Part shown: in pieces, positions 20,101 through 59,188 of the stretch
Position numbering within the stretch: position 1 is the first letter of the stretch
How the letters are laid out: the number at the start of each line of letters is the position of its first letter
DNA from: Ischnura elegans
Lineage: Eukaryota; Arthropoda; Insecta; Odonata; Coenagrionidae
Direction: 5' to 3'
Assembly (NCBI RefSeq): GCF_921293095.1
Contig: NC_060247.1
Coordinates: 108,705,111 to 108,769,110 of the forward strand
DNA length: 64,000 nucleotides
Notes under the pieces: model-generated
What the model was told of the DNA's origin: nothing
The model's input: only the letters and a program-made list of their open reading frames with translations
Database searches by the model: none
Position numbers and translations under genes: made by a program

Positions 20101-23100
20101 AGTGTCCCTGTCTTCCTTTTTTCCCGAAAGGGTTAAATGAGTCCCTCTCCGTAAGGGACATTGCCCCCGTGCCTGTGAGGTGAGGCAAGCCAGGATTTGC
20201 CGTTTAAGCCTGTATGGTATGGAGATACCGTTAGCCAGGGTTATCTCAAGCTTTTTTCAATATGCGAATGTTGCGCTGAGTTGGTATTGACTCGGCATTT
20301 CTTTTGGCGAGGTACAGGCAATTTTCCCTACGTATGGCTTCGTCTTTGTTTTATGTGATGTTCCTATATAATTTTGAAATCTCACTGTCAATCCATAATC
20401 CGATGGATACTATAAAATAGAAGATATTCATTGCTGGACGGATTCGTATGTGATTCGTCTTCCCATCGGACTAAAAAGACGGTCATAAAAATTAGGCTGC
20501 TATAAAAAATCTCCCACCAACTCCTAAAATTGTAAAATTATATTCTCACGCGAAAGTTTAGCGGAATCGTGCATAAGGTAACTGATTTTGAGAAACTTTG
20601 TTTTGACAGACATTGCTTTTGTTTGAAGTATTACCTTGATATTGAAACGTCTGGATTTGCTCTGGTCGAGCAAAATCGTTATTTCCCTCGAATATTGTTT
20701 ATTTTAAACTTTTAAATTTGCCTCTAAATATTTTATCTTTAAGGACCCTCTAGTGAATAATGCATTTGATTTGCATTATGATTTAAGGTTCATTTGATGT
20801 TGAAATGGTCTTCAAAACCACATTTCAAAAATGCGTTGTAGAAAAATATTGTCTTTTGATCTCGCTTTACGAATTTCTTACTGTTCATAGTTGTTTATGA
20901 GTGTGACTCTTCTGCATTTTACTGTATAAAATCTTCGGGCCTAAAAATAGTTCGTCATTAGTTTCTTGCCCGTCGAAATAGCTGGTTTTGATACAGCTCG
21001 GTTCGTTGATTGGTCGTTTGCGACTGATCTATTCCTCAATGATGCACTCTTGGGGATGAGGATTGTCACTGCTGGCCTATCCGTCGAGTGTCGCCTTTGT
21101 TTCCACTTGCTTTAAGTGCCCTAGGATGTTCTTCTTTAGATGGTACTATGGCCCTAATGGAAATCGACGAAATTGTTCGTTTCATGAGTATAACAAACCT
21201 TCCATTTGATATTGGCTGTCGTCAATTTTCTTGTGAATTAAAAAAAATGTTCTAAACACTCAGCAGAGCGTTTCACACAAAAACTTTGCATAATGTCAGC
21301 TCAAAATTGTAACATGGAAAAAAGAGAAAAATCCTCTCCGAAGACTCCTCCTCCTCCTCCGTACTGATGTCTACTTAAAAATACTCTGTACAACCATTAG
21401 AATAAGTCCTGGCCAATGGCCTCGGGCTCAAATCCCGGTGGTGGCGGAGAATATTCAGAGACTGCCCTATCATTGCTTGAATGATGTGTGGAGGACATTC
21501 CGAGCGCAATACTCCCTCCATCGGGTGGGAAGTTTATGTTATGGTCCTCTAAGCGCCTTTCGTTAAGAGCAGGCTAATGCCGACGCCGGGTTTCTCTCCA
21601 CCCTTCCTTCCATACCCTTCCCTCATGGCGTAAATGACATCAGCTGCCGGTCGCCTCCTCCAAATACCATACCATTATTATCCTGCCGATTAAGGGGAGT
21701 TTTCTTGGAATACTTAAGAAGCGTTCTGGCAGTTTCACCTTTCTTCATGTACTCTTCAATTCACAGTAAGGCCTACTCCCTTTCATTCTATCTATAAAAA
21801 ATCCCATTCTCTTCCTTCCACTCTCTCGTTTACCTAACATTCTACCCTCCAACACCGTTTTCAGCATCCCCTCACTGCTAAGTACTCACACCATCCATAC
21901 CTTCTGTCGTATCTCATTTAGGAGTTGTCTCACTTCACCCACAATTTCCAGCACTTCGTCATTCTTCTTCCTATCCGTCCTCATAACCTTCTCCATTCTT
22001 TTCCACACCCACATCTCGAAAGCCCCCAGTCTTCCCTCATCATCCTTTGTGTCCACGTTTCTGCATTGTAAGGCGATACACTCACCAGGTATGACTGTTC
22101 ACTAACCTTTTGCTTAAAATCTTACATAAAGATACTCTCATAAGCTCTTTCCTTGATCATGAACGTCTCCTTTGCAAACGCGATTCTCTTCCTGATATCC
22201 TTGCTAATGTGGCGGAGAATAAATTCTCTTCCGTAAAATATTTCGTACACGTTTAGTGTATATGTCCATGCTCGGATGCTATGAGTGCGTCTCAGAGGAA
22301 ATGTGACCTCCCGTGGCGCCAGAGGAGACACGAGACTCCGGACACGTCAGCCTCTCGCGGCTCTTCACACCGAAAGATGCGAAAAGGGGATCGCTCCAAA
22401 ACAACACTCGGCGCCGCGAAAGTGAGCCCTAGGGGTCGCTTTTTACCATTACGCGTATTCCAACGCCCCGGGAGCGAGTTCGTGTGTTGATGAAGTGGTG
22501 GCTTCGCGTGGGACAGTCCTCGAGGGATTCTGCTTCGCTGAAACCTTCCGGAGAAGCCGGAGCGGCGATCGCTGTCGCGTGTTTACGTCCTTACCGATCG
22601 TTTTGAGGATCTCTTAATGATCCGGGTCACGGCCGTGCATGGAGATATTTTGAAAGTGGGACCGTGCTATGGTCATCGTCCTACAAAGTGCTCTATGCCA
22701 CTCCCCCGCATCTTTGACATTCATGGCTCCGCGCCTGGGTGAATCACTGAGATAACAACGTTTTAACCCCTTTGTCTGTGGTTAGAACACATGAGGGAGT
22801 GAGAAGCAAATGGATTCAAGTGATTTTTATTTCTAAATGGAGTTCGAGTAGGTACAGAACTTAACAGAAGAAACATACAAAAAATTGGTGGCCAAGGGAT
22901 ACGAGTGAGTCTCTGCTCTATGATAACATCGAGTGGAAAATCAAATACACTGCTAAATATGTAGTTGGTCTCGTTTATTTTCTTTACTTAATTTCTGCTC
23001 CCAACACACTTTAGCAAAAAATAATTACATGCACCCCTAGGCTTCTCACCCCCTCATATGTAAAGTAGGGTGGAAGGTTTGTTGATGGCTGAATTGTAAA

Positions 23101-25070
23101 AAGCAATATTTCTGGGCGCAATATATCGTTCAAATTGCCTTTGTGGAAATGAAGATTGTATGGTGCTATCGTTAGCCATCCTCGTAAAAAATGGCTCTGA
23201 TTTCAAACGAAATGGTATTCGTTGGTTTTCGATTTTCATGTATTCCTCAATTTTATTATTTAGATGCATCATTACCCATTCCGTAAGACGTTTTCGATTT
23301 AACCTAGCCATTAAAATATAAATTGTTTCCGTTTAATTTACTGACAACTGTGGCGGTGATTACAGGGTGGAATGATACCCCTCCCATTTGAAAAAAATCC
23401 ATTGGTTTTTTTGTGTGTGCTATAGTCATTGAAGCGGAAGACTCAATATGGCTATGTTTATACTGGAAATTTTGACAGAAATTTTTCCAAAAGTTGGCCT
23501 CCTACCGTAGCAAAGCAGGTGGGCTAAGTAATGCTTCACATTAGTTCGCGCTAATTGTAAGTGAAACTTTCTCCACAATCTCAACACTTCAGAGTTAATG
23601 TCTATCTGAGATACGCTAGCAAAGTGCTATTTTCATATGAAAGCTGCCGATTAATTTCATATCATTTCCATACATTCATGAAAACTTATGATGTATTGAA
23701 TTGTCGTTATGTCCACCAATTCTTTTTTAGACTTTCATTACTATTTTCCCTCTCCTACTCCAATTGCATCCCCCCTCCCACCTGCTCTCCGTTTATATTT
23801 CGCCCATCTGAGGAATTTAGATTCTACCCGATGTCTATGAAGGCTGCCAAGGGGATGTGTTGGGTTATCAGTGACGTAACTTGAGTTCACGCTCGTTAAT
23901 GATATTGTCGAAGTGAGAGACGAAGGAAAGTTAAACCTCTGGTGATAACAGAGAGCGTTGTGACGCAAAGTGTGGACGGAATCAGGAGAGCCGCCAAAGT
24001 CCATTAAGTATTTTTTTATTTCTTTTGAGAATCTCAACCCTCATCTCTAAGCTGCCTTTTAAATCATGCCAGATGTCTTGATTCTTTTTTAAAACTCTCT
24101 TCGAAACTGGCTATTTTCTTGGATATATGTTTGAGAATGATATTATATACCACTTATGCCGGATTATCTGCTATTTTATTTGGTATCTATCGTTTTAGCT
24201 TCTTTAGTCTGTCGACTGTCTCGTTATCCGAAACTGACGTTATAGATTGATATCACATCGTAAATCCATATTGGAACATTTTGTTTAATGAACATCTTTA
24301 AATAATAAAAGGTAATGAAGGGAAGGGGTCCTGAGGGCCAATAATGTAACTGTATAAAACGCCATATCTATTATTGTATCGACGCGACCATCACATTACG
24401 AATTTCTAGTAATTTACTATTTACCCCGATTTATCCCTAACTCAATTTCCTACCCCACCAGACTCAAAACTAAAATAATGATGCTAGCATTTAGTTACGG
24501 TCTTACATCAATTTGGTGGCGGTGAGGTAAAGTCCCGCCTGCCAAACAAGAGGTCGCGGGTTCGAGTGCACGTGTAATTGTTAAATTTGTTGATCACCCT
24601 GATGTAAAATATGTGCTCTATTCGTAGGTATGGGAATAAATTTATAAAATATATACGTCATATTTTTTATTTCAGCGTGTCAAGCAGCCTTGCAACCCCT
24701 GCCGCTTCCCGCGACCCTTCCCGGGCTCTCCGTCCGGCTGATGGCTTCACTGGCGCAGATGCACCGCACGGGCCCGCACATCAAGAAGAGGCCGCCGAGG
24801 AAGCCGCTGGACGGTAGGCCCTTCGCCAAAGGCGTGGTCCTCAAGACCCTCATCCGGAAGCCGAAGAAGCCCAACTCAGCGAATCGCAAGTGCGTGCTCG
24901 TGAGGCTCTCAGGAGGCAAGGAGATGGTCGCGTACGTGCCGGGCATCGGTCACAACCTTCAGGAACACAACATAGTCCTGTGCCGGGTTGGGCGTTGTCA
25001 GGACCTGATCGGAGTGAAAATCAAGTGCGTTCGTGGGAAGTACGACTTGGCTCACGTCATCAAGAAGTAG
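14198..25070 (+). CDS. mRpS12: mitochondrial ribosomal protein S12 (uS12m), two coding exons
   Basis: Small-subunit mitochondrial ribosomal protein of the decoding centre; the fly homologue is technical knockout (tko). Exon 1 is 14198-14267 ([20 protein letters not shown], an Arg- and Met-rich presequence without acids), ending at donor GTGAGT. Exon 2 is 24676-25070 after acceptor TTTTTTATTTCAG. The split codon G|CG makes Ala, and the frame continues to the TAG at 25068-25070, giving 154 residues. The mature region begins near [18 protein letters not shown], and the family's decoding loop [11 protein letters not shown] and the [11 protein letters not shown] motif are intact. The C-terminus [12 protein letters not shown] is close to insect homologues, and length compares with about 140 in fly. 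The intron is 10,408 bases and full of repeats. Exon 2 is markedly GC-rich against its surroundings. A further 5' untranslated exon is likely because an acceptor-like TTTCAG lies 11 bases before the ATG. Confidence 0.95.
14268..15823 (+). other. mRpS12 intron, first part
   Basis: Intronic AT-rich DNA with stop codons in all frames at normal density. No repeat end or nested gene was recognised. Confidence 0.6.
15824..16137 (+). repeat. two-copy tandem duplication, 157-base unit
   Basis: The unit starting TTGTAATCAAATAATTCAAGG at 15824 is repeated from 15981 with a spacing of 157 bases. The copies share AAAATGATATGTTGGAATTT and CTTGCACCGTTAAATTTGTG and differ by scattered substitutions, so the duplication is not recent. 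It lies inside the mRpS12 intron. Confidence 0.85.
16138..18055 (+). other. mRpS12 intron, no recognised element
   Basis: Intronic DNA. A 108-codon open frame at 16036-16362 overlaps the tandem duplication and has no family resemblance. Nothing else was recognised. Confidence 0.45.
18056..18637. mobile_element. candidate MITE with repeated left end
   Basis: The left end GCCTCGTTCAGACTAC at 18056 is matched inverted at the right by GTAATCTGAAGGAGGC ending at 18637. A second copy of the left-end region (CCTCGTTCACATTACGATTG then GACGATAGTTGG) starts near 18202, so the left terminus is present twice. The phrase ACCGGAAGAGGAAGCG occurs inside (18335) and just outside (18655), suggesting nesting or a dimer. 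A fragment of the same family lies at 19783-19925. No coding capacity. Confidence 0.5.
18889..19558 (-). mobile_element. AATAGGGT-family transposon, copy 3
   Basis: Full-length inverted copy of the element at 4167, from AATAGGGTAGTTTCCT at 18889 to AGGAAACCACCCTATT at 19558. It contains the overlapping CACGTGACGTCA motif at 19072-19083. It is inserted between the two related MITE segments at 18056-18637 and 19783-19925, inside the mRpS12 intron. Confidence 0.85.
19783..19925. mobile_element. right-end fragment of the 18056-type MITE
   Basis: Matches 18498-18640: CCTCAACAGCTTTGC, then an AGGGCAGCACAG motif, then a terminal TAGTCTGAAGGAGG. Only the right-hand 140 or so bases are present. Confidence 0.55.
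19926..21405 (+). other. mRpS12 intron, no recognised element
   Basis: Intronic DNA. The overlapping frames at 19788-20188 on both strands resemble nothing known. No repeat ends were recognised between 20200 and 21400. Confidence 0.4.
21406..21683 (+). mobile_element. SINE-like element with B box
   Basis: The segment opens with a B-box-like GGCTCAAATCCC, typical of a pol III tRNA-derived head. It is followed by a non-coding body with characteristic phrases (GGTCCTCTAAGCGCCTTTCG, GGCGTAAATGACATCAGCTG) and ends near a CCATACCATTATTAT tail. Boundaries are approximate and no target duplication was found. Family identity is inferred from organisation only. Confidence 0.5.
21715..22240 (-). mobile_element. 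LINE reverse-transcriptase C-terminal remnant
   Basis: Translation of the minus strand across frameshifts gives the post-RT region of a non-LTR retrotransposon: [13 protein letters not shown], then [11 protein letters not shown], an [11 protein letters not shown]-type motif, and near the end KRMGF and GSRPYC. It is the same family as the RT at 38800-39690 (compare DVRRRIALAKEAL and FEMWMWRRMEKV). Several stops and shifts make it inactive. It sits in the mRpS12 intron in antisense orientation. Confidence 0.75.
22241..23053 (+). other. mRpS12 intron with GC- and CpG-rich block
   Basis: 22270-22600 is far richer in G, C and CpG than the surroundings (CGGCGCCGCGAAAG, AACGCCCCGGGAGCG, GGAGCGGCGATCGC). 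No exon or repeat family was recognised in it. It could be an unrecognised repeat, an enhancer or an alternative promoter. Confidence 0.35.
23054..23311 (-). CDS. hypothetical 85-residue ORF in mRpS12 intron
   Basis: An ATG-initiated antisense frame ([20 protein letters not shown]...) of 85 residues ends at 23054. It is basic at the N-terminus and polar throughout, with a composition more protein-like than neighbouring frames. I recognise no family, domain, signal peptide or membrane segment. It may be a remnant of a transposon gene, or chance. It lies wholly inside the mRpS12 intron on the other strand. Confidence 0.18.
   Translation of the reverse strand: MARLNRKRLTEWVMMHLNNKIEEYMKIENQRIPFRLKSEPFFTRMANDSTIQSSFPQRQFERYIAPRNIAFYNSAINKPSTLLYI
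23312..24513 (+). other. mRpS12 intron, no recognised element
   Basis: Intronic DNA with overlapping short open frames on both strands at 23561-24037 and no family resemblance. Confidence 0.4.
24514..24650 (+). mobile_element. tRNA-derived SINE abutting mRpS12 exon 2 acceptor
   Basis: Same family as 56281 and 61262: TGGCGGTGAGGTAAAG, then CCTGCCAAACAAGAGGTCGC and B box GGGTTCGAGT, then a body with CCTGATGTAAAAT and a tail GGAATAAATTTATAAAAT. The head resembles tRNA-Gly (GCCTGCCA anticodon region). It ends only 25 bases before the splice junction of mRpS12 exon 2. Confidence 0.7.
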
Positions 25071-30450: not shown

Positions 30451-30563
30451 CATGTGATGAATTGTTTTGTATATTTTAAGTATTCCTTGCTTATGCTTTG
30501 GCATTAGCTTCATTTTCATAGAAGTCACATAATTACATGATGGGCGCTAAAGTAGCTATCCAT

Positions 30564-30771
30564 CTGCAGGAATATTTCTCGGGTTTCCCACCGGGTGTCG
30601 TATCGGGTTGTAGTTCCCAACGTTTCCATGAGTAAGTCCGTCATCGTCATCAGGGGCTAATGACGGACTTAGTCATGGAAACGTTGGGAACTATAACCCG
30701 ATACGACACCCGGTGGGAAACCCGAGAAATATTCCTGCAGAGCATACGCCGGGAAAAACTCAGATTCTACA
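30564..30771. mobile_element. 208-base palindromic insertion, Penelope-like candidate
   Basis: Two arms of 81 bases (30564-30644 and 30660-30740) are near-perfect inverted repeats around a 15-base loop. The unit plus a 31-base tail is flanked by an 11-base direct repeat, TAGCTATCCAT, at 30553-30563 and 30772-30782. The minus strand across the loop reads CCCCTGATGA, then a short stem with loop CGGACTTAC, then GGAAACG, which resembles the hammerhead ribozyme core of Penelope-like elements. The arms carry CCGATACGACACCCGG. No coding capacity. Family assignment is inference. Confidence 0.6.
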
Positions 30772-36150: not shown

Positions 36151-36325
36151 ATTATTAGGTAAATGAAACATTGAAATCTTTCCACTAGGTTTATTCGAAC
36201 ACGACGTGTTTCGCTGTTACAGCAATTTTATCAAGGGCATCATTGTAATGTTGTTATAATAACTAAACGCGTCGTGTTCGAATAAATCCTGTGGAAATAT
36301 TGCAGTGTTTCATTTTACTAATATT
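36151..36325. mobile_element. inverted repeat pair, Penelope-like pLTR candidate
   Basis: Arms 36161-36211 and 36265-36315 are inverted copies of about 51 bases with weaker similarity extending about 10 bases outward. Each carries GTGTTCGAATAAA and a TGGAAA motif. The minus strand at 36235-36203 reads TTGATAAAATT, then GCTG-TAA-CAGC, then GAAACACGTC, which matches the order CUGANGA, stem II, GAAAC, GUC of a hammerhead with a decayed first element. Penelope-like elements are known to carry such motifs. No ORF is present. Confidence 0.55.
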
Positions 36326-37002
36326 AATAACTTCCACCACGTTGTGCCGTATATCATACAAGATATTTAATTAACTTAGCTTATTCGTGGCGATGCTTTC
36401 ATCCGATGATGAAAATACATTCTTTTCTTTCCTTCACCAGATAGAATCATAAGAAAATATTAAGGAAACGTAATCTAGGACAGAAAGATTTTAAATTTAC
36501 CTCTTTCCTAATACAGTGAGGGATATTAATAGTTTCGCAATTCCTGAATCGATTCTTATCACTAGCCAGGACGATTAATTCTTGTTTACTTTCTTTCATC
36601 TTTATATGCATTTCTTTTTTGCATTTAAAATGAATTTTTCATCTTAAAATTTCTTAGCATTCTATTTTTGTTAACCATGCATGGATTATATTATTTTTTT
36701 AATCGCTAGAAAAGTTTTACTTATCATGTTAATTTTTTTTTTAGTGTAGTGTCACATGGATCCCAAACTAATCCCAAACTAATGTGCACAAATAAGTAGG
36801 GCGTGTTATTTTCATTCGTTTTATAGCATTTCAGTGTGATCAAAATTTTGATTGTCGTGTAACTATGTTTGTGATATAGTCAAGTGTTATGGAGCGCATT
36901 TCTTGGCTGAAACCCACACCAATCTGAAGAAATCAGTCGGCCGGTGTTATTTTTATAATCATTTTTATAACGATGCGGTCAGAGTCGTAGCCAGGAGAGG
37001 GT
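36326..37002. other. AT-rich stretch, nothing recognised
   Basis: AT-rich DNA with poly-T runs. No gene or repeat end was recognised apart from its junction with the LINE fragment at 37003. Confidence 0.35.
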
Positions 37003-37440
37003 ACATCTACATCTATATAGTACCCTGCGAGCCACCTCTAGGGTGTTTGGCAGGGGGTGATCAATCACCATCATGCAGCATGCAATTCGACTCCCACATG
37101 CACTCTACACATCCAAAATACGTCACGCTTACTAACCAATTATGCTACCAGATACTGTTAGAAATAATAATGCAATTCGGAAACATGCATTAAAGTATGC
37201 ATAAGTTAGTAGGCTACACTACAAGTCATCTAATCTATTTATGAGTTCTAACGCTGCCGTTATAATCTCTAATTGATCGTGGAAAAAAAGACATTCTGAA
37301 TCTGTCTGTTCTACAATCTATCTCTCTTATTTTATTTATATGATCTGATCTACCGTAGTATGTTGGCGTTCGTAAGATATTGTTAACTTCGTCAGAGAAG
37401 ACACTGATCTTGAATTTATCTAAAAGGTTTAGTCTATTTT
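37003..37440 (-). mobile_element. CR1-like LINE 3' end, copy
   Basis: The 3' terminus at 37003 starts with ACATCTACATCTATATAG followed by the conserved hairpin (ACCCTGCGAGCCACC ... GGTGTTTGGCAGGGGGTG). It continues through a roughly 300-base 3' untranslated part and into the RT C-terminus (minus-strand reading of the LRTPTYYG region near 37360). Closely similar copies are 56729-58085 and 62050-62620. It is 5' truncated. Confidence 0.75.
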
Positions 37441-38115: not shown

Positions 38116-38124
38116 GCAGTGGCG

Positions 38125-38790
38125 GGTTAAGGTGCGTTTGGTGGGGACATGGAGCAGGTAGTCCCAAGATGGGCGTGGCACACCCTCCGTAGGGTCCCTA
38201 ATCCCGAACCCCTTCCTCGACGCGTTCACCCTCGCTGGCCCATCTCTTGGACCCTCCCTGCGGGGGCCTCCCTCCCGATAAGTGACCGCTATGACTGCAA
38301 TTTGGAAATTGATCAATCAATCCAATAATCAAAATATGTTTTTTTGCATCGTACTCCTGCCAATCGTGCGATCAAGTACGTCTTTGAACCGTGTTTCTGC
38401 GATGAGAAATAACGATTTTGTTACGGCTGTATGTGAAATTTACTTAAATAAATAAATAAATAAATAAACTTTGCTAAACACGTGGCTGTGGACCACCGGA
38501 AAATGGCAACAGCGCTTTGGAATGGGCAAAGTAGCGGGCTGTTTGAATGAGTTACGAGCATGAATTTGCCATCTGGTACCGCTCATTTGCACGCCAAGGC
38601 TTCAGTTAATTTACCTTCAGTTCCACATAGTCTCCGATTAGATAACTTGCGTCGAGATAAAGGGTCAATTATTCCCTAAGTCGGATATTGAAGGGTTAAA
38701 GCAGTCGAACTACTTCAAAAAGTCAAAAAACACCTGAAAGGTGGATAGGTTGTGTGAGTTTTAGACGGTGATTGCGAGTCCCTTTACGTA
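38125..38790 (+). repeat. left long terminal inverted repeat
   Basis: 666 bases matching the reverse complement of 42156-42776. It carries an extra 45-base block (38424-38468) ending in an AAAT microsatellite that is absent from the right arm. Confidence 0.85.
38424..38468 (+). mobile_element. 45-base insertion with (AAAT)n tail
   Basis: The right arm of the host element reads straight through from GATTTTGTTA to GCTTTGC, while the left arm is interrupted here by CGGCTGTATGTGAAATTTAC followed by an AAAT array. This resembles a severely 5'-truncated retroposon with a short-repeat tail. Confidence 0.5.
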
Positions 38791-38799
38791 TTTTCTCCA

Positions 38800-39690
38800 G
38801 AGAAATGAAATAAAAGGGAAGTTAACTCGGAACGCAATAGAGATAATGAGATGCCTGGTGGAGAGGAGCCTAGAATATGACCAGGACGTGTATGCCTGCT
38901 TTGTGGATTTTGAAAAATCATTGATTGAGAGAACTGGGTAAAGTTAATGGATATTTTCAAGAAATTAGGTGTGGATTGGAGGGATAGGTGACTGATTCGT
39001 AATCTGTATATGGCCCAGACTGCGCATGTGAGGGTAGCGGACGGAGAATCTAGGTGGGCAAGCATTGGCAGAGGAGTGAGGCAAGGCTGTCCTCCATCGC
39101 CGCAGCTCTTTAACGTGTACGCTGAAGAGATGGCAAGGGAAGCGTGGGATGAGTTAGAAGCTGTAATAAAAGTGGGAGGAATGATGTTCAAATAGGTGAG
39201 AATCGCGGATGATCAGGCGTTGATTAGCCAGTCAGCGAGGGGGCTTCAGGTTCTATTGGATGCGTTATACGAACGTTACGAGGAGTATGGGATGAGGATT
39301 AATCAGAAGAAAACTAAGGTTGTGCGTTTTTCTAAAGCAACACGAGCGAGGAATGTGGGAAATATAAAGGTGGGCGGTGAAAAACTTGAGTAGTTCAACT
39401 ATTTGGGCAGTACGTTGGAGGAAAACGGAGGCAGTGGTTAGGACGTTAGGAGGAGAATTGCATTAGCAAAGGAGGCGCTCATGAGCAGGAAGGAGCTTCT
39501 GAGAGGATCGTTATGTAAGATTTTAAAGAAAAGGTTAGTGAAGAGTCTGATCTGGAGGGTAGCGATTTGCGGTGCAGCAATATGGACACTTAGGAAGGAG
39601 GACGAGAAAAGACTGGAGGCATTCGAGATGTGGATGTGGCGAAGAATGGAGAAGGTGAAGTGGACGGAGAGTAGTAAACCTACCTGAATC
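38800..39690 (+). pseudogene. non-LTR reverse transcriptase, frameshifted
   Basis: RNA-templated DNA synthesis enzyme of a LINE. Fragments in order: RNAIEIMRCLVERSLEYDQD and VYACFVDFEKS (RT motif A region, usually FVDFEKAFD), RVADGESRWASIGRGVRQGC then PPSPQLFNVYAEEMAREAWD (motif B), then ADDQALISQS after a stop at 39195 (motif C, normally YADDxx), then the thumb region RRRIALAKEA and FEMWMWRRMEKVKW. At least three stops or shifts break it. It is the same LINE type as the remnant at 21715. It lies inside the long-TIR element, just after the left arm, so it inserted into that element or was captured by it. Confidence 0.85.
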
Positions 39691-39699
39691 GGTAGAATA

Positions 39700-39945
39700 C
39701 TATAATAATATATGATAAATTCAAGAGCAGCGTATTTTCCGGCGACGTTAGCCATATATAACGAGCGCCAACATACTACAGAAGATCAGATTATATAAAT
39801 AAATTAAGTGAGATAGGCTGTAGAACAGACTGATTCAGAATATCTTCTTTTCCACGATCAAATAGAGACTATAACGGCAGTGTTGGGACTCAGAAATAGA
39901 ATAGATGACTTGTATTATAGCTTACTAACTTATATAGAGCGATGT
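39700..39945 (+). mobile_element. CR1-like LINE fragment, C-terminus and start of 3' UTR
   Basis: Plus-strand reading DKFKSSVFSGDV, then RAPTYYRRSDYINK and SFPRSNRDYNGS, equals the RT C-terminus of the copies at 37003, 56729 and 62050. The conserved TAGCTTACTAACTTAT-type 3' untranslated start is present but the terminal hairpin is missing. Confidence 0.7.
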
Positions 39946-40089
39946 CTAAGTTCTTAAAACAAGTATCTTAAAAATAGCATCTTTTCGGGAGAGCAAAAGA
40001 AACTATTCATATTTTTAATTGTACACTAAAATTCAAAAACAAAAATTCATTAATTAAATAATAAATTCAACAACGATGTCAGAAGGGAA

Positions 40090-42018
40090 CTTAGGAAGCA
40101 GAGAAAACTATACAACGTGTACAGTAAGTCCATTACGTTATGTAATAAATCGAAGGAACTTGAAGCTAAAGAAAGTTACGCTGCATAGCGCTCAATAACT
40201 AAAAAATCAATGCGAAAGTTCAAGAAAAGTACTTCAAAGTGAAGTTCAAGTAAAGGTAAAAGAAAAAGTGCTCGAAGAAAATCCTAAATCCTTTTGGTCG
40301 TACGCGAGAGAGCTTCAGGAATAACATTCAACCGTTGATTCGTTATTTGATAAAGATGGTAAACTTGTCACCGAAAATATTGACAAAGCTAACACATTAA
40401 ACTCCCACTTCGAAAGTGTATACATTACTGACGATACTCAATTCAATTTAGACATCCCATGTACTAAGGAATCGATGGAAGATATATCTATACAACTTGA
40501 TGGGATAACTACACAACTACAATCGATTGAGAATATTATATCTCCGGGTCCGGAGGGAATACCCGCGCGTGTCCTCCACAGATCGCACCTTACTTAGAGA
40601 TAATATTCAAGAAATCACTATCAGAAGGAAAGTTACTGCTACACTGGAACATTACAAGCGTTACACCCATATTTAAAAAGGGAAACAGACATGCCCCAGA
40701 CAACTAACGTCCAATTTCATTAACACCTATCATAGACAAGATACTTGAGCATCTCGTCATTAGCAATATCATGACTTTCTTGGACAGACGTAACTTCCTC
40801 CATGACTGTCAGCACGGATTCAGAAAAGGTAGATCATGCGAAACATAGCCCGCGCTCTTTCTTAACGATGTTATAAAATCTGGTGAATAGAAAAGACAAG
40901 TTGACGCACTATTTCTAGATTTTAAGAAAGCTTTCGACACTTTACCTCACAACAAATTTTTATACAAATTGCAGTCATGCGGAGTAAACGAAACATTTGT
41001 AAACTGGATACGCGACTTCCTCAGAGATCGTAAACAAAAAGTAGTTCTTGACGGAATTAGCTCTGATGTAGTAAAAGTTACATCAGGTGTTCCACAAGGA
41101 AGCGTAATCAGCCCCCTGTTGTTCATTATATACACTAATGATCTCTGCTCCCGCATTAGCAGTATAATGCGTTTATTTGCTGACGACGCTGTCATCTATC
41201 GCGAAATTAGTGATCATTCTATGAAATTCTATCATCGGAATTAAAAAACGTTAATTTGTGGAGCCAAGAGTTGGGACTCGAACTTAATCTGAACAAATGC
41301 ATGTCGATATATTTCTTGCGGAATTCGACCAACTATGACCATGTTTATTCTGTGGATGGTATTAACATAAAGGCAGCAGACGAAGTGAAGTACCTTGGAG
41401 TTACGATAACCTTGAACCTCTCGTGGGGAACACGTATAAGGAATATCTGTGGCATGGCCCTGAAGACATTCGTCAAGCGTATTGTGGAAATATTTTCGGA
41501 TGAGCAAGTGAAAGAAAGGTGCAATTTCGCAATCGTACGTCCGTACCTTGAATATGCAGCGAGCGTATGGGATCCGGTACAGAAAGACTTAATGCGTGAA
41601 CTGAATTAAACACAAAGGAAGGCTGCGCGTTTCGTCAAAAACTGCTACGGGCGTACAGACAGCGTTACCCAGATGTTAAGCGAATTAGGCTGAGAGCCGC
41701 TGGAGACTCGTAGGCTGCGCGCTAGGCTTAGATTGCTTGAACAATTGAGAATGGATATCTTTAAGAGCGACACGGAGAACATAATATTAGAGCCAAACTA
41801 TATTTCCAGATCCGATAGAAGCGATAAATTAAGAGAGATGTTTTGCCAAACGGATATATGTGGGAATTCGTTTTTCCCCCGAACCATGAAGGACTTTAAT
41901 AAATGCTAGTCACAACTTCGTAGAGCACTTCATTTTTTATGTGTAGACGGCTGGTGTCCTAACACCCCCTGCCACACGCTTTTTTGGCGGCTTGCGGGGT
42001 ATTATGTATATGTAGATG
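40090..42018 (+). pseudogene. CR1-like non-LTR reverse transcriptase and 3' end
   Basis: Reverse transcriptase domain of a LINE, read in order across several stops and shifts: SPGPEGIPARVL (near 40545), NWRPISLTPI-type region, HGFRKGRSCET, ALFLDFKKAFDTLPHNKF (motif A), VTSGVPQGSVISPLLFIIYT (motif B), MRLFADDAVIYREI (motif C with FADD at about 41177), then LGVTITLNLSW, RPYLEYAASVWDP and a C-terminal FFPRTMKDFN. The 3' untranslated region is about 110 bases and ends in the hairpin CCCCTGCCACACGC...GGCTTGCGGGG and TATTATGTATATGTAGATG. It lies inside the long-TIR element. The best preserved RT of the window, but not functional. Confidence 0.88.
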
Positions 42019-42155
42019 AACCACGAAGTATGAAATATATGCCTTGTGGTCAATAATAATAGCCTCAGTTCTCATTACGCACTCTGAAATATTCGCCGCC
42101 AAGAGGTCAAGGTTGTTGTTACCCCTGGTGGGCGTATTTTACGTAATAATATAAC

Positions 42156-42776
42156 ACGTAAAGGGACTCGCAGTCATCGTCTATAACTCACACAGCGTAG
42201 TCACTTCTTGGGTGTTTTTCGAATTTTCGAATTAGTTCGACTGCTTTAACCCTTCAATATCCGCCTTATGGAATAATTGACCCTTTATCTCGACGCAGGT
42301 TATCTGTCGGAGACTACGTGGAACTGAAGGTAAATTAACTGAAGCCTCGGCGTGCAAATGAGCGGTACCAGATGGCAAAATCATGCTCGTAACTCATTCA
42401 AACAGCCCGCTACCTTATCCATTCCAAAGCACTGTTGCCATTTTCCGATGGTCCGCAGCCACGTGTTTAGCAAAGCTAACAAAATCGTTATTTCTCATCG
42501 CAGAAACACGGTTCAAAGACGTACTTGATCGCACGATTGGCAGGAGTACGACGCAAAAAAACATATTTTGATTATTGGATTGATTGATTGATTTCCAAAT
42601 TGCAGTCATAGCGGTCACTTTTCGGGAGGGAGGCCCCCCCCTGGGAGGGTCCAAGAGATGGGCCAGCGAGGGTGAACGCGTCGAGGAAGGTGTTCGGGAT
42701 TAGGGACCCTACGGAGGGTGTGCCACGCCCATCTTGGGACTACCTGCTCCATGTCCCCACCAAACGCACCTTAACC
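42156..42776 (-). repeat. right long terminal inverted repeat
   Basis: 621 bases matching 38125-38790 in inverse orientation, with scattered substitutions such as CGGGGGGG-type changes near 42635 and without the 45-base insertion. Confidence 0.85.
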
Positions 42777-42940
42777 GCAGTGGCGCATCCAGAGAGGGGC
42801 TTGGGTATCCAATTTACGCTGGATGAAATGTTAATTTTGATCGGACCCCCGCTACTGCAGGTAGGTTACCTTCCAGGACCCTTTGTCCTATCCCGGATCC
42901 GGTGCTGCACCGTAGTGAGAGAACTTCAGCCATGATTTGT

Positions 42941-43042
42941 GGTGTGCATGTGGGAGTCCAAATGCATGCTGCATGCTGGTGATTGATCACCCCCTGCCAA
43001 ACACCCTAGAGGTGGCTCGCAGGGTATTATGTAGACGTAGAC
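42941..43042 (+). mobile_element. LINE 3' terminal fragment
   Basis: GGTGTGCATGTGGGAGTCC, then GCATGCTGGTGATTGATCACC, then the conserved hairpin (CCCTGCCAAACACC, CTAGA, GGTGGCTCGCAGGG) and TATTATGTAGACGTAGACG. It is the last 100 bases of the CR1-like family and begins 156 bases after the long-TIR element's target duplication. Confidence 0.8.
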
Positions 43043-44090
43043 GATACTGTATACAGGGGCCCTATGTAAGCTAATCTCTCGGATAGTTCGCGGTTGGTTC
43101 TCAGAAAGACGTCGTAATTTCGGAATGAACTATCCGAACTTCCCGCCACTGATACACGTCCGAGAACTGCCGAAATGACGGATTGTCTCGAAAAATGACT
43201 TTCCGTTTCTCGGAATCGAAAACTGATGTGCCAGCTGGTAAGTTATTGAATATTTTTAACGCGAAGGTGGTGCTGCAGAAGTTGGTAAGAAGTCACGAGT
43301 AATTTGCAATATTGGCACGGTATGTGTACTAAAAATTATTGGAAATGCATGATTATGTACGGAGTCAGGAATTAAATAAAGCTACAGGCGAAGCCAGTTG
43401 ACAGTTGTTTCAACAATGCAGTAAAAGCATAGTGGATAGCATGATAGGACTGGATGCTGCGTTTGCATTTACGGCGTTGGTAGCGTTTGTTAAATTTTTA
43501 GTTAACGCGCGGCCGATGATTGTTCCGTGATCAAAAATTTCTGCACAGAATCGGAGACGGAAACATAAAGTTCGATTCCAAAATCTCGGAAACGGGGAGA
43601 CGTAGTTACTGGATAGGGCTCCAGAGAAGGAATTAAGAGTGCGAAATATTGGCGAAGATCTCTGGAGGCGATCGGGAAGAGGAAAAGTTGGCACGGGCGG
43701 GTGCGCCACGAAAACACGCGAGCGAGTCAACACCAACAACAACACTACTGGGAGCAATATGAAGGGAGGTGTGCCCGAGGAATTCCCACGCGTCCGCAAC
43801 CTCGAGGATTGAGCGAGGCTTGCGCTCATCTGACGGAACAACCAGCCACCCACACCGCCCCTGCGAACGCCCCCAACGGCGAGATTCCACTTCGAGGAAA
43901 AGAGAGGAAAAACACCGCTCACTCATGCAGCCCGCGGCTGGGAAAACTTTTTCCAGAAACCTCCTCATTTTGGAATGGAGTGCGTGCATTCAGATTTTCA
44001 GACACGCTCTCTGAGCTGCGCCCTCAAAGCCGGTGTTTCGAAATTTAGTATTTGATATGCGTTTTATTTATACGATATTCATCATAAAGC
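43043..44090. other. non-coding stretch with CpG-rich block 43490-44030
   Basis: 43490-44030 is GC- and CpG-rich (AACGCGCGGCCGATG, CTGCGAACGCCCCCAACGG) with long overlapping frames on both strands, up to 170 codons on the minus strand. None resembles a protein family, and such frames are expected by chance in GC-rich DNA. A promoter or untranslated exon of an unrecognised gene is possible. Confidence 0.35.
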
Positions 44091-47745: not shown

Positions 47746-47749
47746 ATCC

Positions 47750-48392
47750 AATAGGGTGGATCCTATTATTTTTTATTGCGTAAATGAAAGATTATTACTC
47801 CATATCACGCTCTTAGGTTTTCGAATGGCGATATCTATTTTTCGCGATTAAATGAAAAGTGAAAATTTTCAAGCGCGCGAAAACGCGACGGCTAAGTAGG
47901 AATGATGGGAAAAGTCCGTGTGACGTGTTTCTGGTTCCCGCTGCCGCCCTGTGAGGTGACCTTGAGGCGAGGCTTGAGCACTGATACGACACAGGCTGCT
48001 AGCAGGGTACTCTGCTACCTGCGCTTGGCTTAAATATGGATTATTAATACCTTATCAAACGAAGGAAACTTTCCGACCTTGGACAATTTTAATAAGTGAT
48101 TATTAAGAAATGTTTCCCTGAGCTCTGTGACTCATGCATGCATTGGTAATCTCAGACGATGTAAAACTCCTATCCTCTCGTGTAGAAACTAGGTCCCTGT
48201 GACGTCACGTGGAGTGGAATCGCATGGGCGCCAATCTGGCCTTTTTCAAATGTGGTTAAAATTGACCATTGGCATTCGTCTAAAGTGGGATTTCTAAAAC
48301 CAAATAATGTGTATGTTATGAAAACCCTAACTGTGGGTAACGAATAGCAATCAATGCATTTCGTTTTCTTTGATGAAGGAAGCTACCCTATT
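47750..48392 (+). mobile_element. AATAGGGT-family transposon, copy 4
   Basis: Full-length direct copy of the element at 4167, from AATAGGGTGGATCC to GAAGCTACCCTATT. It contains the overlapping TGACGTCACGTG motif at 48200-48211. Some divergence from copy 1 and short internal indels. Confidence 0.85.
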
Positions 48393-51300
48393 GGTCTATC
48401 TGATCCGTACATTTAACCATTAGTCTGCTCAGAGTGGCGTAAAAATTTACTTCCACTAACATGGACTGCTCTCCCAAAATTACATGTTGTGGTGTGCCAA
48501 TACATCTATTTACTAAATATAAGTCAAATACGCGCATGGATACGATCGATGTGAGCTCTCGCCTTGAGGGTGAACCACGCGCATGAGAAAACCTTTCGGT
48601 GATAGAAGCCAATAGCCAGGGAACCAGTTTAATAACGATGCAGATTTATCGGTGAAGATTAGCCCACTCCTGCAAAAATTACATCCTGTGATTAGCTACC
48701 AAAAATTAGAGAACTGTCAATTGTCCCTATTATCAAATGCATTATATGATTTTACGTAATAACTGTTTTTACAATGAAATGCATGGAAATAAACTACGTA
48801 ATAATTTTACATGTTCAGTTAACTATTTTTAATGTGAGTTTAATTACGTTTCGTATGATACTATGAGTCAAACTCTCTGTTTTTATATGCTGCATATTGG
48901 GAAAGCCACTATTTCTTAAAAATGACCCGAAGCTTTTCACTACGTCGAGAATGAGCTATTACGAATTATATTCCTACAGGCCAAGAATGGGTACAGTAAT
49001 TTTTCAAATTACGCCCTGTCGTGAGAATGAATCCAATGAATATTAGGGCATAAAATTTTGGAGAAAAAGGACGTAAATTAGGTGCTTTGATGATTTGAGA
49101 ATAAATATCAGCTATTTTATTTTTTTGTGCGGAGAGTGGCAATATTGTTTGCCATTAAAGAATGGAAGAATTACAATTTTCCAACTTCGTTTCCAATTTA
49201 ACCTTTTTCTCCATTTATTACGTCCTTTGCTCTTTTATTTTCCCATTGTGGTAATCATTGCATTTTGAAATTAAACATGCGTATGACTGTGAATTTTTAT
49301 ACCTAGAATGTGTGCTCTGGTATTAAAAAAAATATATATTTTATCGCACGTATTGATTCTACTCTGGCTTTTATCTTCAGATATTTCTTAGTGGCTCTTA
49401 TGCTGAGGTGCAATTTTAGGCGAAGCCAGAGGAATAGATACTTTGATGAACTTAGCTTAACTGGTAACGAATAGCTTGAACACCACCACCACTATTTTCC
49501 AAAAGTATTGCTACAAAGTTGATGTCTTCAATCCTTAGGACTCGTAAACGAAAACATTCCCGCTAAAGAGTGTGGACGTAAAGATTCACATGCATACGGT
49601 TTTTAAAACTACCTATTTTTGGACTCATTTTAGCTCATCGGAAAAACACGAGCGAAAGGATGGTAGAAAGATGGGGTTTGTAGTTAGATGTGAACACGGG
49701 AGGGTGGTCAGGAGGGAGAACTTATAGAAATGAAAGAGACAGCCGTTTCTTCAGATTTTCTTTCGCCCCAACGTTTTCTACCGCTCGTGACAAAATGGTC
49801 GCTGTCAATCAAGGGAAGCTAGATCATATCTCCCCATTTTAACGTGAGATATTTATCGACGCTCGCCCTAGCGGGACCCTGAGCGGCTTTAAAAGAAGTG
49901 GATTCACCCCAAAAAGGCCCGGGGATGGGACGAATAGGTACTTACCTCTCCTACCCACCCTTTCTCGCACTTTTGCGGAAGGTAAAGTGATTGAGCGTCC
50001 GCACTTTTCCACGGGACTTATAAACAACGAGCCTTAGAAAAGGCGGAAGGCTTAATGGGTCGTTTTTGGGTAATTAGTCAGAGTAACGGTACGTTCCGAA
50101 ATATCTATCCGAATGTGTGTGGGTTGGCTTTGTTTCTCCTGCGGCTTTTCGCTCCCGAAATATTGCGAAAGGGGATTAAAGAGGAACATTTTTAAAGGCT
50201 TTGCTCATATGAGGTGAGGGCTAGACCAAACCTTCTTGTGGTCACCATCCAAAGTGAAAGCAACGGTACAAGAGGGTTGGAAGGGGTGAGAAAAGAAGAG
50301 ACGAAGAAGAATATTTCTTTCGGCTTCGACTTCTTGTCCGTGTGTGCAGCGGGCCATAAGATATCCATGTGTCGCAGATGATGAACTGCCGAGTCAGAGA
50401 GCATCCATCAGCCGTTCGTGGACGGACAATCCATCGGTGGTCACTGCAGAGGGACCGTGGTCAAGGGGAGGGATGGCGAAAGCGATGGAGGGCATTTGGG
50501 GGTGGTCAGTGGACAGATGTTACACCCATAGAGTCACGTATGGTCAACAGCCAATGGGATTCAAGTACTCTCTCTCGTGGGGAAATGGCGGGGGATGCCA
50601 AGTGTGCGAAAAGGGTTTAGGAAATTGACAGGTTGCGGGTACCTGGGGAAAGAAAAAAGACGGATAGTTCGCTAAGGGTTATGAAATACTCGCAAAACCA
50701 TTTTCTTTGCACAAACGGTTCTGGCGGTCTTAGTCCTTTCTTGTGCCCCTAAAAATAGGAAAGAGTTACGTTTGTTGCAGTTCTGTGGTGCGCCTCAAAG
50801 GAGTGCTGTCTTTAGTTTTGGCTCAGTGAAATGCTTTTCGATTAAAGCGCTGTGGAAGTCTACCTACCTAGCATCTATCTTACCTACCCTAACCTCTGAT
50901 TTCGGCCTTCTCCTATTTTCGCATAGTTTTTGAGGAAATTCCTCTAAAAATGAAGTAAATATTACTTTCCTGAAAATCCATTTCGTTTTTTATCTAGTTT
51001 TTGGATAAAATATTGTAAAGAACGTTTCTAGAGGTCTCAGAAGATCATACTTCTCTCCATGAAGTGATGGGCTTACCGATGCAGTATTACAGCGAGTACC
51101 TCTTCCCCCTTTCTAAAACTATATGATGATCTTATTTCACTTTTTCGATACGATGACTGTCCATTTATCTCTTCCGCAAAATGTATTTACCTGTTTGTGC
51201 TACTTTGGTTAATTTCAGTCACGGTTTTCAGTTCCTAAACTAAGATCTCAAATTAAATCTTGTATTTCAATTAAATGAAAATGAAGGAAATGATAATAAA

Positions 51301-51835: not shown

Positions 51836-52606
51836 TCTTATATATAAAAATGAATCGCAAAATGTGTTGGTAAGCGCATAACTCAAGAACGCCTGGACCA
51901 ATTTGGCCAATTCTTTTTTTAAAATGTTCGTTGAAGTCCAAGGATGGTTCTTACGGCGATAAAAAATCGAATAATTGCCGGGAAAACCCTAAAAACAGCC
52001 CTTTTCTTTTTCACATACAAACGTTTTCTAACTAAAACGTAGAATCAATTTGAGCTTTATTGCTATTATATAAAGTTCATATTAAATTACAAGCACTCAC
52101 TGTTATCTAAGAAATGTAGGTGTGTTCCTAACGTCAAAAAGTAAATTTGCACTTTCTTACCGCTATACAAAGTTCAAATTCAATCATATCTATCAAAACA
52201 GTGTGCGTGTGTGCGTTGGAGCACAGAATACGTCGTTGGAGGATTTAATGTCGCGTTCCGAAACTAAAAAAAAGTGATCGCGGACCCGACCAAATTGAAT
52301 AGTCACAAAATATAATAATAACAACTTGGTTGGCTTCGCGATATTATTTTTTTTGTTTTACTTTCGGCAGTCGACAAAAAAATAAAACATTGGTATGGCT
52401 TTAGAGGATTTGACTTCAAGTCATATCAGATTAAAAAAAAAAACAAATTAAAAAAACAACTGTCAATGTCGATTTGCCGCCTTTGCCGGTGTTGTTTTTC
52501 TTGGATTTTCTGTTATACTCTACTGAGTGTGCTTTTGTTTTGTTTGCAGTGTTTTGTTATCTACCTATGAAAAAAAAGTTATTGCATGTGACACAATATT
52601 TTAATA

Positions 52607-54863
52607 ATGCCTCCTATAAGACGAGGCAATTTAAGTAGAAGAACACGAAATGCTACAAACCAAGCTAATTACCGATCTAATCGTACTGCACAAGAACGTG
52701 ACGACCGAAATGAACATGAAAGAATTAGGATATCACAAACACGTGAAGCGCGAGCACGACTTTCAACTAATAATCGCGCAAATTTGAATCGAGCTGCTTT
52801 CAGTTACGATGTGTCAATTGACTACAGTAACTACCAATGTGTTGTTATTGGTTCTATGAACTCGGTTTGCTCACATTGTAAAGCATTAAAATACAAAAAC
52901 GAAGCCAATGGATTGTGTTGCGCAAATGGTAAAGTGAAATTAATACCATTGAATCCACCACCAGAGCCATTGTACTCATTGGTTTCAGGAATAGGAACAG
53001 ATTCCATACACTTTTTGAAAAATATCCAACAATATAACAATTGCTTTCAAATGACTTCATTTGGGGCAACAAATGTGGTTCGGGAAAATTTTATGCCAAC
53101 TTTCAAGGTATGTATTAAGCAGTTAATCATAATTATTTTAGCGAACAATATTTTCTGATACATAATTTATAATAACAAATATTATTTAAGTTTGATCACT
53201 GACAATACATAAATTTATTCTACACATTGCTTATTTATTTTATTTTATAGTGTTTTTGTTACAAATATAATATATATATTTTTTAATTTACAGATACAAG
53301 GCCAAATATATCACAGAGCAGGTTCATTGTAACCAGTGCCAGCTAGCAACTATGAATTCCTGCAAATTTATTTTATGGGCAATTCACAACAAGAAATAGA
53401 TCAGCGTTATGCATATAACAATTTAGTAAAGAGGCCTATTGTAGAACAATTACAAACTTTTTTTCATGAACACAATCAATTGATTATATTGTTTAAAACT
53501 GCACTTGATCTGATGCCATCTGACAATCACAAAATTGTAATCAGAGCTGATAAAACACCTGCGGGTCAACATGCAAGACGTTTTAATGCACCAACTATTG
53601 ATGAAGTTGCTATCGTTGTAGTTGGAGAAAACCTTGAATCCCGTGATATTGTTTTACATCGTCGGAATGATCAATTACAACGTATAAAGGAAACACACCG
53701 CTCATATGATGCACTGCAATATCCCATTATATTTTGGCAAGGTGAAGATGGCTATGATTTCTCAATAAAAATGATAAATCCCATTACAGGTAATTAAAAT
53801 ATTAGTTTAGCTATGGCGATAATATCTCAGTCAATATATTATGTATTTTAATTTTATATTTCAATGTTATTAAAACAAAATATATTTACAGGTTCTGAAA
53901 TCATCAAAAAAGTAAGTTCAATGAATTATTATTCATACCGCCTAATGATTCGGGAAAATGAAGACAATCACATATTGAAATGTCGGCGATTATATCACCA
54001 ATATGTTGTTGACATGTATGTTAAAATTGAAACGGAGAGATTAACATTTATCAGGTTGAATCAAACTAAACTCCGATCTGATGAGTATAAGAGATGCGAT
54101 TAATACAGATGGCAATGCACAGAATGTGGGACGGATGACAATTCTTCCAGCAACATACATCGGAAGCCCTAGACATATGCACGAATATGCTCAAGATGCC
54201 ATGTCGTATGTTCGTCATTATGGTACAGCAGATTTGTTCATCACATTTACATGCAATCCACACTGGATAGAAATCAAGCAGGAGTTATTCCCTGGGAAAT
54301 CACCCATTGATCGTCATGATATTACAGCCAGAGTCTTTAGACAAAAGTTGAAATCTTTGATGGATTTCATCGTAAAACATCATGTGTTTGGTGAGACACG
54401 CTGCTGGATGTATTCTGTGGAGTGGCAGAAACGAGGATTGCCACATGCACACATTTTGATTTGGTTGGTTGAAAAGATAAGGGCAAATGAAGTTGATGCA
54501 GTGATATCAGCTGAAATCCCTAATGTACAAGTAGATCCTGGATTGCATGAGGTAGTTATCAAAAACATGATACATGGTCCCTGTGGAACTCTTAATCAAA
54601 ATTCACCGTGTATGATGGATGGTAAATGTTCGAAACGATATCCACGGACATTAATATCGGAAACAATTACTGGTAATGACGGTTATCCACTGTATCGTCG
54701 CCGATCGACAGCAGACAATGGAAGATCAACAATTGTAAAAATAAATCAACAAGATATTGAGATAGATAATCGCTGGATTGTTCCATATTCACCCATTTTA
54801 TCAAAGACCTTCAAAGCACACATCAATGTTGAATCTTGCCATTCAGTGAAATCTATTAAATAA
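52607..54863 (+). pseudogene. Helitron Rep/helicase protein, N-terminal and Rep part, broken
   Basis: Would nick and join single-stranded DNA during rolling-circle transposition. Exon 1 52607-53107 starts MPPIRRGNLSRRTRN, has CSHCKALKY and NPPPEPL motifs. Intron 53108-53293 (GTATGT to TTTACAG), then exon 2 to 53789, intron 53790-53891, then exon 3. Phases match at both junctions. The Rep domain has FITFTCNPHW near 54235 and the HUH motif GLPHAHILIWL near 54435, plus the usual CGTLNQNSPCM and KRYPR motifs. Defects: TAA at 53330-53332, a frameshift near 54087, and a stop at 54861 just before the family's CKYxxK catalytic Tyr region, which is lost. Confidence 0.88.
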
Positions 54864-56196: not shown

Positions 56197-56268
56197 GGTC
56201 CCATGGTGTAATGGTTAGCACTCTGGACTTTGAATCCAGCGATCCGAGTTCAAATCTCGGTGGGACCT
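56197..56268 (+). tRNA. tRNA-Gln (anticodon TTG)
   Basis: 72-base cloverleaf: acceptor GGTCCCA/TGGGACC with discriminator T, A box TGGTGTAATGG, anticodon stem CTGGA/TCCAG with loop CTTTGAA (anticodon TTG at 56230-56232), and T arm with B box GAGTTCAAATCTC. No intron; CCA is not encoded, as expected in eukaryotes. All stems pair, so it looks functional. A T5 run follows at 56276. Confidence 0.93.
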
Positions 56269-56728: not shown

Positions 56729-58085
56729 TACATCTACATCTACATAATACCCTGCGAGCCACCTCTAGGGTGTTTGGCAGGGGGTGATCAATCACCAGCA
56801 TGCAGCATGCATTTGGACTCCCACATGCACACCACACCGTCCAAAAAACGTCCCGTATAATAACAAACTATACTACTATATGCTGTTAGAAATAGAATAG
56901 AAATTCAGAAACATGCTTTAAGTTTTACATAGGTTAGTAGGCTACACTACAAGTCATGCAATCTATTTACGAGTTCTATTGCTGCCGTTATAATCTCTTA
57001 TTGATCGTGGAAAAAATGACATTCGGAATCTGTCTGTTCTACAATCTATCTCTCTTATTTTATTTATATGATCTGATTTTCCGTAGTACGTTGGCGTCCG
57101 CAAGATATGGTTAACTTCGTCAGAAAAGACACTGCTCTTGAATTTATCTACATTAGACACATAAGTTATCGGGTTAACCTACATCCTACTTGTGAAGGCA
57201 GTTTGCTTATGAAGCTAGAATATGCAAAAAAAATGCTGTTAGAAATACCAGGAAAATTAAAAAAATATATATTCAGGAATACATGCATTACGTTAGCAAG
57301 CTACACTAACAGTCAACTGACCTATGTTTTTAGTTTCAACGCTGCCGTTACAGTCTCTTATTGACTGTGGAAAGAAACAACATTCTGAATCCATCTGTTC
57401 TACAGTCTATAAATCTTATTTAATTTTCATGGTCATCTCTACCGTAGTAGGTTGGCGTCCATAAAATGTGTCTAACTTCGTCGGGAAATAAACTGCTATT
57501 GAATTTACATTATCGGTTAAGTGCAGTTTTCAATCTACGACCGACATTGATTCTCATCCGAGGTGTTCTAAGAGGTCTTTAACACTATAAATAATATCAT
57601 TACGGTTTTCCGCTTACCTGGATGCTCTTCTTTGTAGACGTTCTAACTCTGATTGTAAGTGTTTTTCATGAGGATCCCAAGTACTGGCAGGGTATTCCAA
57701 ATCGAATCTAACGGGGGAGAAGTAGCTGATTTCTTCCATTTTATCGTCTCACTTTTCTAATATTATTTTATTAAAACCTAATTTATAATTAGCTTGACCT
57801 GTTATTTCACACATTTGTTAATTCCACGATAGATCATGATTGAGTCTCACTCCGAGGTATTTTACGGATTCTACATTCTAATTGAGTACACTGAATGAAA
57901 TTTCTATGACATGGGAAGTTACTTCTTCCAGACTCTCATTACTTCGCATTTTTACAAATTCAACTCTAGCTTCCACGGATCGCATCATGATTGGACTACA
58001 GTAAGGTCGTCCGTTAGTTCATCGCTATCTTAACTGATAAGGATTTCCCTGTACAATGCAGCGTCGTCTGCAAATATTGAAGTTT
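56729..58085 (-). mobile_element. CR1-like LINE copy with RT remnant and full 3' end
   Basis: Reads on the minus strand: FADDAALYREI (RT motif C, about 58075-58040), a VEFVKMRS-type region, LEYPASTWDPHEKHLQSE (near 57690), a C-terminus LRTPTYYGKSDHINKIREID then RMSFFPRSIRDYNGS (57090-56970), a 3' untranslated part, and the terminal hairpin and CTACATCTACATCTACATAATAC end at 56729. A stretch of the C-terminus and UTR (57160-57500) is present twice in diverged form. Frames are broken by many stops. Confidence 0.8.
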
Positions 58086-58368: not shown

Positions 58369-58517
58369 GATTAGTTAATTGTTATTTTGCATTTAATTCT
58401 TAAAGAGCTACACTCCAAGAGACAAATCTACGTTAAAAATTGAGGTCAAGAGAAAATTTAAAAATATCATTTTATGTTATTTCCCGTATATGTTGGCGTG
58501 GTTACATCCCGAGAATC

Positions 58518-59188
58518 AATAGGGTACTTCATCAAAGAAAACGAAAGGCATTGATTGCGATTCGTTACCCACCATTAGTGTATTCATAATATACAAATTA
58601 TTTGGTTTTAGAAATACCGGTTTAGACGAGTGACAAGGGTCAGTTTTATCCTTATTTGAAAATGTGGAAAAACATAGTTTATGGCGCCCATGCGATGCCA
58701 CTCCACATGACGTCACAGGGACCTAGTTTATATACGAGTAGATAGGAGTTTTACATCGTCTAAGGTTACCAATGCATGCATGAGGCACAGAGCTCAGGAA
58801 AATATGTCTTAATAATCACCTATTAAAACTGGCTAAGGTCGGAAAGTTTTCTTCGTTTGATAAGGTATTAATAACCCTTATTTAAGCCAAGCGTTACCAG
58901 CTAGCATGGTATTCTGCTACCTGCTAGCATCCTGCGTCGTATCAGCGCTCAGAGCCTCACCCCAAAGTCACCTCACTTGCGGCAGCGGGAACCAGAACGA
59001 CGTCACACGGAGTTTTCCCGGCATTCATACTTACCCGTCGCGTTTTCGTGCGATTGAAAATTTTCACTTTTCATTTAATCAGGAAAAAAAGATATCGTCA
59101 TTTAAAAATCTAAAAGCGTGAAATACGTACTCCAGGATTAATAATCTTTCGATTTAAGCAATAAAAATATAATAGGAAACCATCCTAT
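58518..59188 (-). mobile_element. AATAGGGT-family transposon, copy 5, with foreign patch
   Basis: Inverted copy of the element at 4167 from AATAGGGTA at 58518 (five bases of the terminal repeat lost) to ATCCTAT near 59188. TGACGTCA is kept at 58708-58715. At 58662-58681 the family sequence AGGCCAGATTGG is replaced by a 20-base string identical to 58328-58347 in the neighbouring palindrome. Confidence 0.83.

Follow-up and report, generated by a model that had tools for sequence, protein, structure and literature searches.

Long inverted ends, a 9-base target site duplication and decayed LINE pieces in a probable MULE-type insertion

Introduction

According to PMC6446971, MULEs produce target site duplications of 8–11 bp, and ends of 18–613 bp or none are tabulated there for the Phantom group together with duplications of 8–10 bp; the figure in the text of that paper for the ends of the elements analysed is 14–500 bp. 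For Aedes, duplications of 8–9 bp are given in 14 of 14 MULE families and ends longer than 100 bp in 12 of 14, the non-autonomous copies being described as having mixed interiors (PMC5225508). About one fifth of the Aedes Muta1 derivatives are stated in the same source to hold host gene fragments, so that captured filler in animal MULEs is already known. Among the 100 animal reference genomes surveyed in PMC8277862, no Pack-MULE was reported; filler was defined in that survey as non-transposon sequence, and a LINE-filled element was therefore of a type that could not be counted in it. End length is described as an unreliable guide to classification (PMC3573991), and the formation of siRNA from long MULE ends is an idea already in print (PMC6446971).

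The locus described here lies in a window of 64 kb (the whole stretch of DNA that was analysed). It has long terminal inverted repeats, as known for MULE and Phantom elements, and an exact 9-bp duplication, which falls in the MULE range; no MULE DDE transposase was found in the six frames of the element itself. The locus was judged to be probably a MULE-type (most likely Phantom-type) insertion, i.e., a non-autonomous cut-and-paste transposon with long inverted ends.

Results

Inverted arms and target site duplication

The left terminal inverted repeat (38125–38792, + strand, 668 nt, beginning GGTTAAGGTG) and the right one (42153–42776, − strand, 624 nt) were delimited by BLASTN and global alignment. 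Arm against arm, BLASTN gave a single match (669 columns, 87.6% identity counting gaps); the global alignment showed identity at 586 of 623 ungapped columns (94.1%), and the 37 mismatches consisted of 25 transitions and 12 transversions. Of the three gaps in the alignment, two measured 1 nt each; the third, of 44 nt, corresponded to extra sequence confined to the left arm (38423–38466, unstranded; gap placing ambiguous by 1–2 bases), which contained most of a (TAAA)6 run (38445–38468). The arms had been said in the preliminary description to pair throughout; inverted pairing was indeed nearly full, but it is interrupted by the two 1-nt gaps and by the 44 nt of the left arm. The outermost 85 bases were identical between the arms (85/85), the tip sequence at both ends of the element was GGTTAAGGTGCGTTTGG, and the outer 160 nt of the left arm had a G+C content of 64%. 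The terminal 17-mer, with up to 3 mismatches allowed, was present in the window at the two ends of the element only (0.13 expected); neither this search nor BLASTN gave a second copy of the element in the 64-kb window.

An exact 9-base duplication, GCAGTGGCG, stood directly outside both tips (left copy, 38116–38124; right copy, 42777–42785; both unstranded). Lengths of 6 to 12 were tried, and 9 gave the sole in-register match; the chance of 9/9 bases matching beside two given ends is about 4^-9 = 4e-6 (arithmetic). The inverted arms and the perfect 9-base target duplication noticed earlier are thus real by BLASTN, global alignment and the in-register test. The element without its duplications measured 4,652 bp. 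A comparison of the joined empty site against the window gave, the locus itself aside, a single match across the join (33 nt, 79%, E = 0.09, 932–964), which was unconvincing.

Arm divergence was unevenly distributed: over the first 300 positions of the left arm, 7 of 298 columns were mismatched, vs 30 of 325 at positions 342–668 (Fisher P = 2.7e-4). Per 100-position bin, from the tip inward, divergence was 1, 5, 1, 7, 5 and 8%, followed by 19% (13 of 68 columns) in the last 68 positions, an uneven rise. The mean mismatch position was further inward than in 20,000 of 20,000 permutations; after removal of the last 68 columns, P was 0.013. Candidate causes are conversion between the arms acting nearer to their tips, an exchange with a further copy, and inner-arm differences that preceded the last move.

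Reading frames were earlier held to be conserved between the two arm copies. This was not borne out: the two 1-nt indels shift the frames and every one of 12 frames contains 6 to 18 stops, by which the arms are ruled out as coding sequence; the supposed conservation is a reflection of arm identity only. Tandem Repeats Finder gave the (TAAA)6 run of the left arm plus two arrays that were short and weak (42216–42233 and 42568–42593); foldback-type tandem repeats were not found by it in the arms. The left arm alone was rejected as a structured RNA (z = −0.32; 8 of 20 shuffles folded equally well). Small-RNA silencing by way of the arm hairpin is possible.

LINE pieces in the interior

A six-frame translation of the element (X at stops) was searched for Pfam domains with E values up to 1 allowed. 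RVT_1 was matched (E = 7.3e-43) in two stretches of one frame, that of piece A below, one of the stretches being 40675–41211; five of the six frames gave no match at this threshold, the sole other match was a weak viral family (E = 0.084, below cut-off), and no transposase was matched. LINE fragments inside and the lack of a recognisable transposase, both noted before, were accordingly found again. From open frames and repeats, the interior may be read as mainly three decayed LINE pieces, all on the + strand.

Piece A (38800–39690, +), part of a reverse transcriptase ORF by open frames and RVT_1 stretches, with borders set by eye, begins approximately where the arm stops and has neither LINE end; its part 39440–39671 matched 21971–22201 at 78%. 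Piece B (39714–39933, +) is a repeat of 220 nt that recurs at four other places in the window and is named by no Pfam match. Its copies at 37002–37422 and 56729–57150 continue into a LINE-like 3' tail, which, taken together with the reading frame, suggests that piece B could be the C-terminal portion of a further LINE ORF. Piece C (40150–42011, +; left border by eye) consists of a reverse transcriptase ORF, containing frame changes and stops as well as the RVT_1 stretch at 40675–41211, and a 3' tail that was 74% like 42975–43044 (tail repeat D1). The stretches at about 39934–40149 and 42012–42152 belong to none of the three pieces. At the junctions tried, piece C was not seen to be flanked by any duplication of at least 9 bases, nor pieces A or B by any of at least 7 bases; when the junctions were paired more widely, nothing longer than a 10-base A+T string matched. 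No convincing duplication flanks the LINE pieces.

Age of the filling

Stops were counted over LINE frames totalling 2,553 nt (piece A, 834; piece C, 1,719; piece B left out); segment borders and frames, with four frame changes, were judged by eye on the basis of the open frames, the LINE ORFs were taken as intact on arrival, and the transition bias of the arms was applied. The count was 13, or 11 after two stops at segment edges had been dropped. For LINEs arriving when the arms were last identical, half of the arm divergence predicts 2.8 stops (P = 1.7e-4 for at least 11, 8e-6 for at least 13), and half of the outer-arm rate 1.1 (P = 2.9e-8); at half of the inner-arm rate, 4.4 stops are expected (P = 0.005 for 11). 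When the divergence is not halved, the expectation becomes 5.6 stops for the arms as a whole (P = 0.03) and 8.7 for their inner part (P = 0.26 for 11, 0.11 for 13), the latter leaving no excess; the stop excess thus fades with the most diverged part of the arms as yardstick. The implied LINE decay was 11.6% per lineage (95%, 5.8 to 20.8). For an insertion as old as this decay, agreement of the duplications at 9/9 has P = 0.13 and that of the tips at 85/85 has P = 6e-9; the tip agreement is excusable by arm conversion, the duplication agreement is not, but it is mild evidence.

Window context

Rfam at gathering thresholds gave nothing in the element and one tRNA elsewhere in the window. Pfam matched two of 10 longer open frames outside the element (Helitron-like and ribosomal S12) and gave nothing for the other eight. 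The ribosomal protein S12 match lies at 24648–25067 (Pfam) and is presumably mitochondrial S12. Together with the kinds of LINE, this match would point to an animal host, probably an arthropod.

The left arm was unmatched at E 1e-5 among 50,697 phage records. The terminal 17-mer was met in viral contigs at one locus (L001), where 19 bases were common with the tip and the sequence then diverged; this was taken as chance. Arm patterns of 22 and 24 bases each had 0 exact matches in viral contigs, and a 20-mer arm pattern had 0 exact matches in genome contigs of the viral or prokaryotic collections; the silence of such exact-match collections means little for an animal family. In published text, none of the matches listed for GGTTAAGGTG was on a transposon by its title, by which absence from print is not implied.

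Discussion

That the element works like a MULE is well supported; that it is a MULE is likely, for one locus and from end length and duplication length only. With one locus, no transposase match in the element and no second copy in the window, the superfamily is assigned by these two lengths. One insertion would have taken place at this site, with the transposase supplied from elsewhere and acting in trans; the enzyme would most likely be Mutator-like (Phantom-type) and make a 9-base staggered cut, and the old LINE pieces would already have been inside at the last move of the element. The preliminary description had left the choice between a Mutator-like and a foldback element. The former is the best fit (long ends, 9-base duplication); foldback in the narrow sense falls away, tandem repeats of that type not having been found in the arms by Tandem Repeats Finder.

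Since 11 stops were counted vs 2.8 expected, the filling probably predates either the element's last move or its last round of arm-to-arm conversion; gene conversion between the arms makes them look younger, and an age contrast is thus possible with no recent move. The view that the LINE pieces were already old inside the element when it last moved is given a modest preference. The alternative of most weight, held to be less probable although a serious one, concerns the filling only: the same transposon landed, LINEs jumped into it one by one, and later arm conversion gave it a young look. Such LINEs were active here, as further window copies of piece B and of the LINE-like tail, together with the one partial match for piece A, indicate; the uneven arm divergence is of the kind that patchy conversion could give, and the LINE decay is not in excess of the undivided inner-arm divergence. 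Against later nesting, pieces A and B have no LINE ends, a duplication of at least 9 bases was not found around piece C, and the duplication, which lies outside the arms, agrees at 9/9 in spite of a decay of 11.6% per lineage, a mild argument.

That the element belongs to a different superfamily, whether a P/Galileo-type foldback or one not yet described, and left 9 bases here by chance is considered unlikely. Galileo ends in D. mojavensis average 668 bp and span 18–1,250 bp (PMC3573991), and foldback-like ends arose in unrelated superfamilies (PMC3169594); however, the Galileo duplications are 7 bp (PMC3573991), here 9 bases are duplicated and 7 fails in register, and the tandem repeats usual in foldback ends were not found in the arms. 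A unique inverted duplication by rearrangement, with no transposon, would agree with the failure to find a second copy within the window, but an exact 9-base duplication directly outside ends identical over 85 bases is not expected from it, and this origin is hardly credible.

For the MULE-type insertion itself, a further reading is put forward with much reserve and is rather doubtful as a whole: an animal MULE-type element captured three long-dead LINE pieces between its long ends and moved as one composite. A pack-type element would have an interior copied from elsewhere and moved along with its ends; here, the interior looks older than the arms by three of four yardsticks, but the filler is itself transposon DNA and the window gave no second copy with this interior. 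If the composite is true, other dead transposons can travel as filler inside animal MULEs with long ends, each move would add two inverted arms able to form long double-stranded RNA around an old LINE, and DNA-transposon capture would be linked with retrotransposon silencing; otherwise, the locus adds another non-autonomous element to a genome rich in repeats. The observation is sound and the element of an ordinary kind; its one twist, which can be tested, is filler that would be older than the ends around it.

Comparison with known systems

Galileo (P superfamily) has ends on a length scale like that of the element, as well as copies without transposase and chimeric copies; its duplications are 7 bp vs 9 bp here (PMC3573991). 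Tetris, a foldback-like element of Drosophila virilis, is described in PMC4079207 as non-autonomous, with ends of up to 1,735 bp, and the present element is likewise long-ended; duplications of 8–9 bp are given there for three complete copies, and the middle is variable and without apparent coding capacity. The Tetris ends contain tandem repeats of about 220 bp (PMC4079207), whereas none such were found in the arms of the element.

Tm1 of root-knot nematodes (Mutator/Foldback, Phantom-class) has, in the account of PMC3169594, mostly 9 bp duplications, the length found here, and its two ends are on average 93% identical in the parts compared, vs 94% of ungapped columns in the element. Its ends consist largely of 13–15 bp tandem units and have asymmetric tips (PMC3169594), whereas the element has equal tips and no such array was found in its arms. 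The Tm1 tip motif A1, CGGTTAA, has GGTTAA in common with the tip of the element (PMC3169594); this likeness is of six letters only.

Muta1 ends carry subterminal tandem repeats, and none such were found in the arms of the element. The element is close in form to the Phantom group as a whole, from which it differs in having no transposase and in arms (668/624 nt) slightly above the table maximum of 613 bp (PMC6446971). This group of animal elements, in which Aedes Muta is included, shares with the element the long inverted ends, its duplications are 8–10 bp, and its non-autonomous copies have heterogeneous interiors, as the element has (PMC6446971, PMC5225508).

Other repeats and genes in the window

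A repeat of ~670 bp with the termini AATAGGGTAG...CCACCCTATT was found in five copies (4167-4831, 7948-8352, 18890-19558, 47748-48393 and 58517-59191), one of them shortened to ~405 bp; pairwise likeness between the five was 80-92%, and the repeat looks like a non-autonomous inverted-end element. Inverted ends of 44 nt (86% complementary; tips AAGGCCTGGTTACA) enclose 149 nt at 10573-10809, which is likely a small inverted-end element.

Open frames spanning 52592-54860 likely belong to a Helitron. In the Pfam scan, which covered 10 of the longer open frames outside the putative Mutator-like transposon, 54060-54860 was matched to Helitron_like_N (E = 4e-45), and no match was obtained for the frames 52592-53155 and 53333-53794.

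A near-perfect hairpin is present at 30563-30741 (arms of 82 nt, 98% complementarity) and another of similar size at 36153-36323 (78 nt, 79%); the arms are separated by 15 nt in both. At 15824-16135, a 155-nt unit is duplicated in direct tandem, the copies being 93% identical.

tRNA-Gln (TTG) was called by ARAGORN at 56197-56268, where a tRNA was also called by Rfam. The stretch 24648-25067 was matched to ribosomal protein S12/S23 (Pfam, E = 3e-22), presumably mitochondrial S12, and may be a real host gene.
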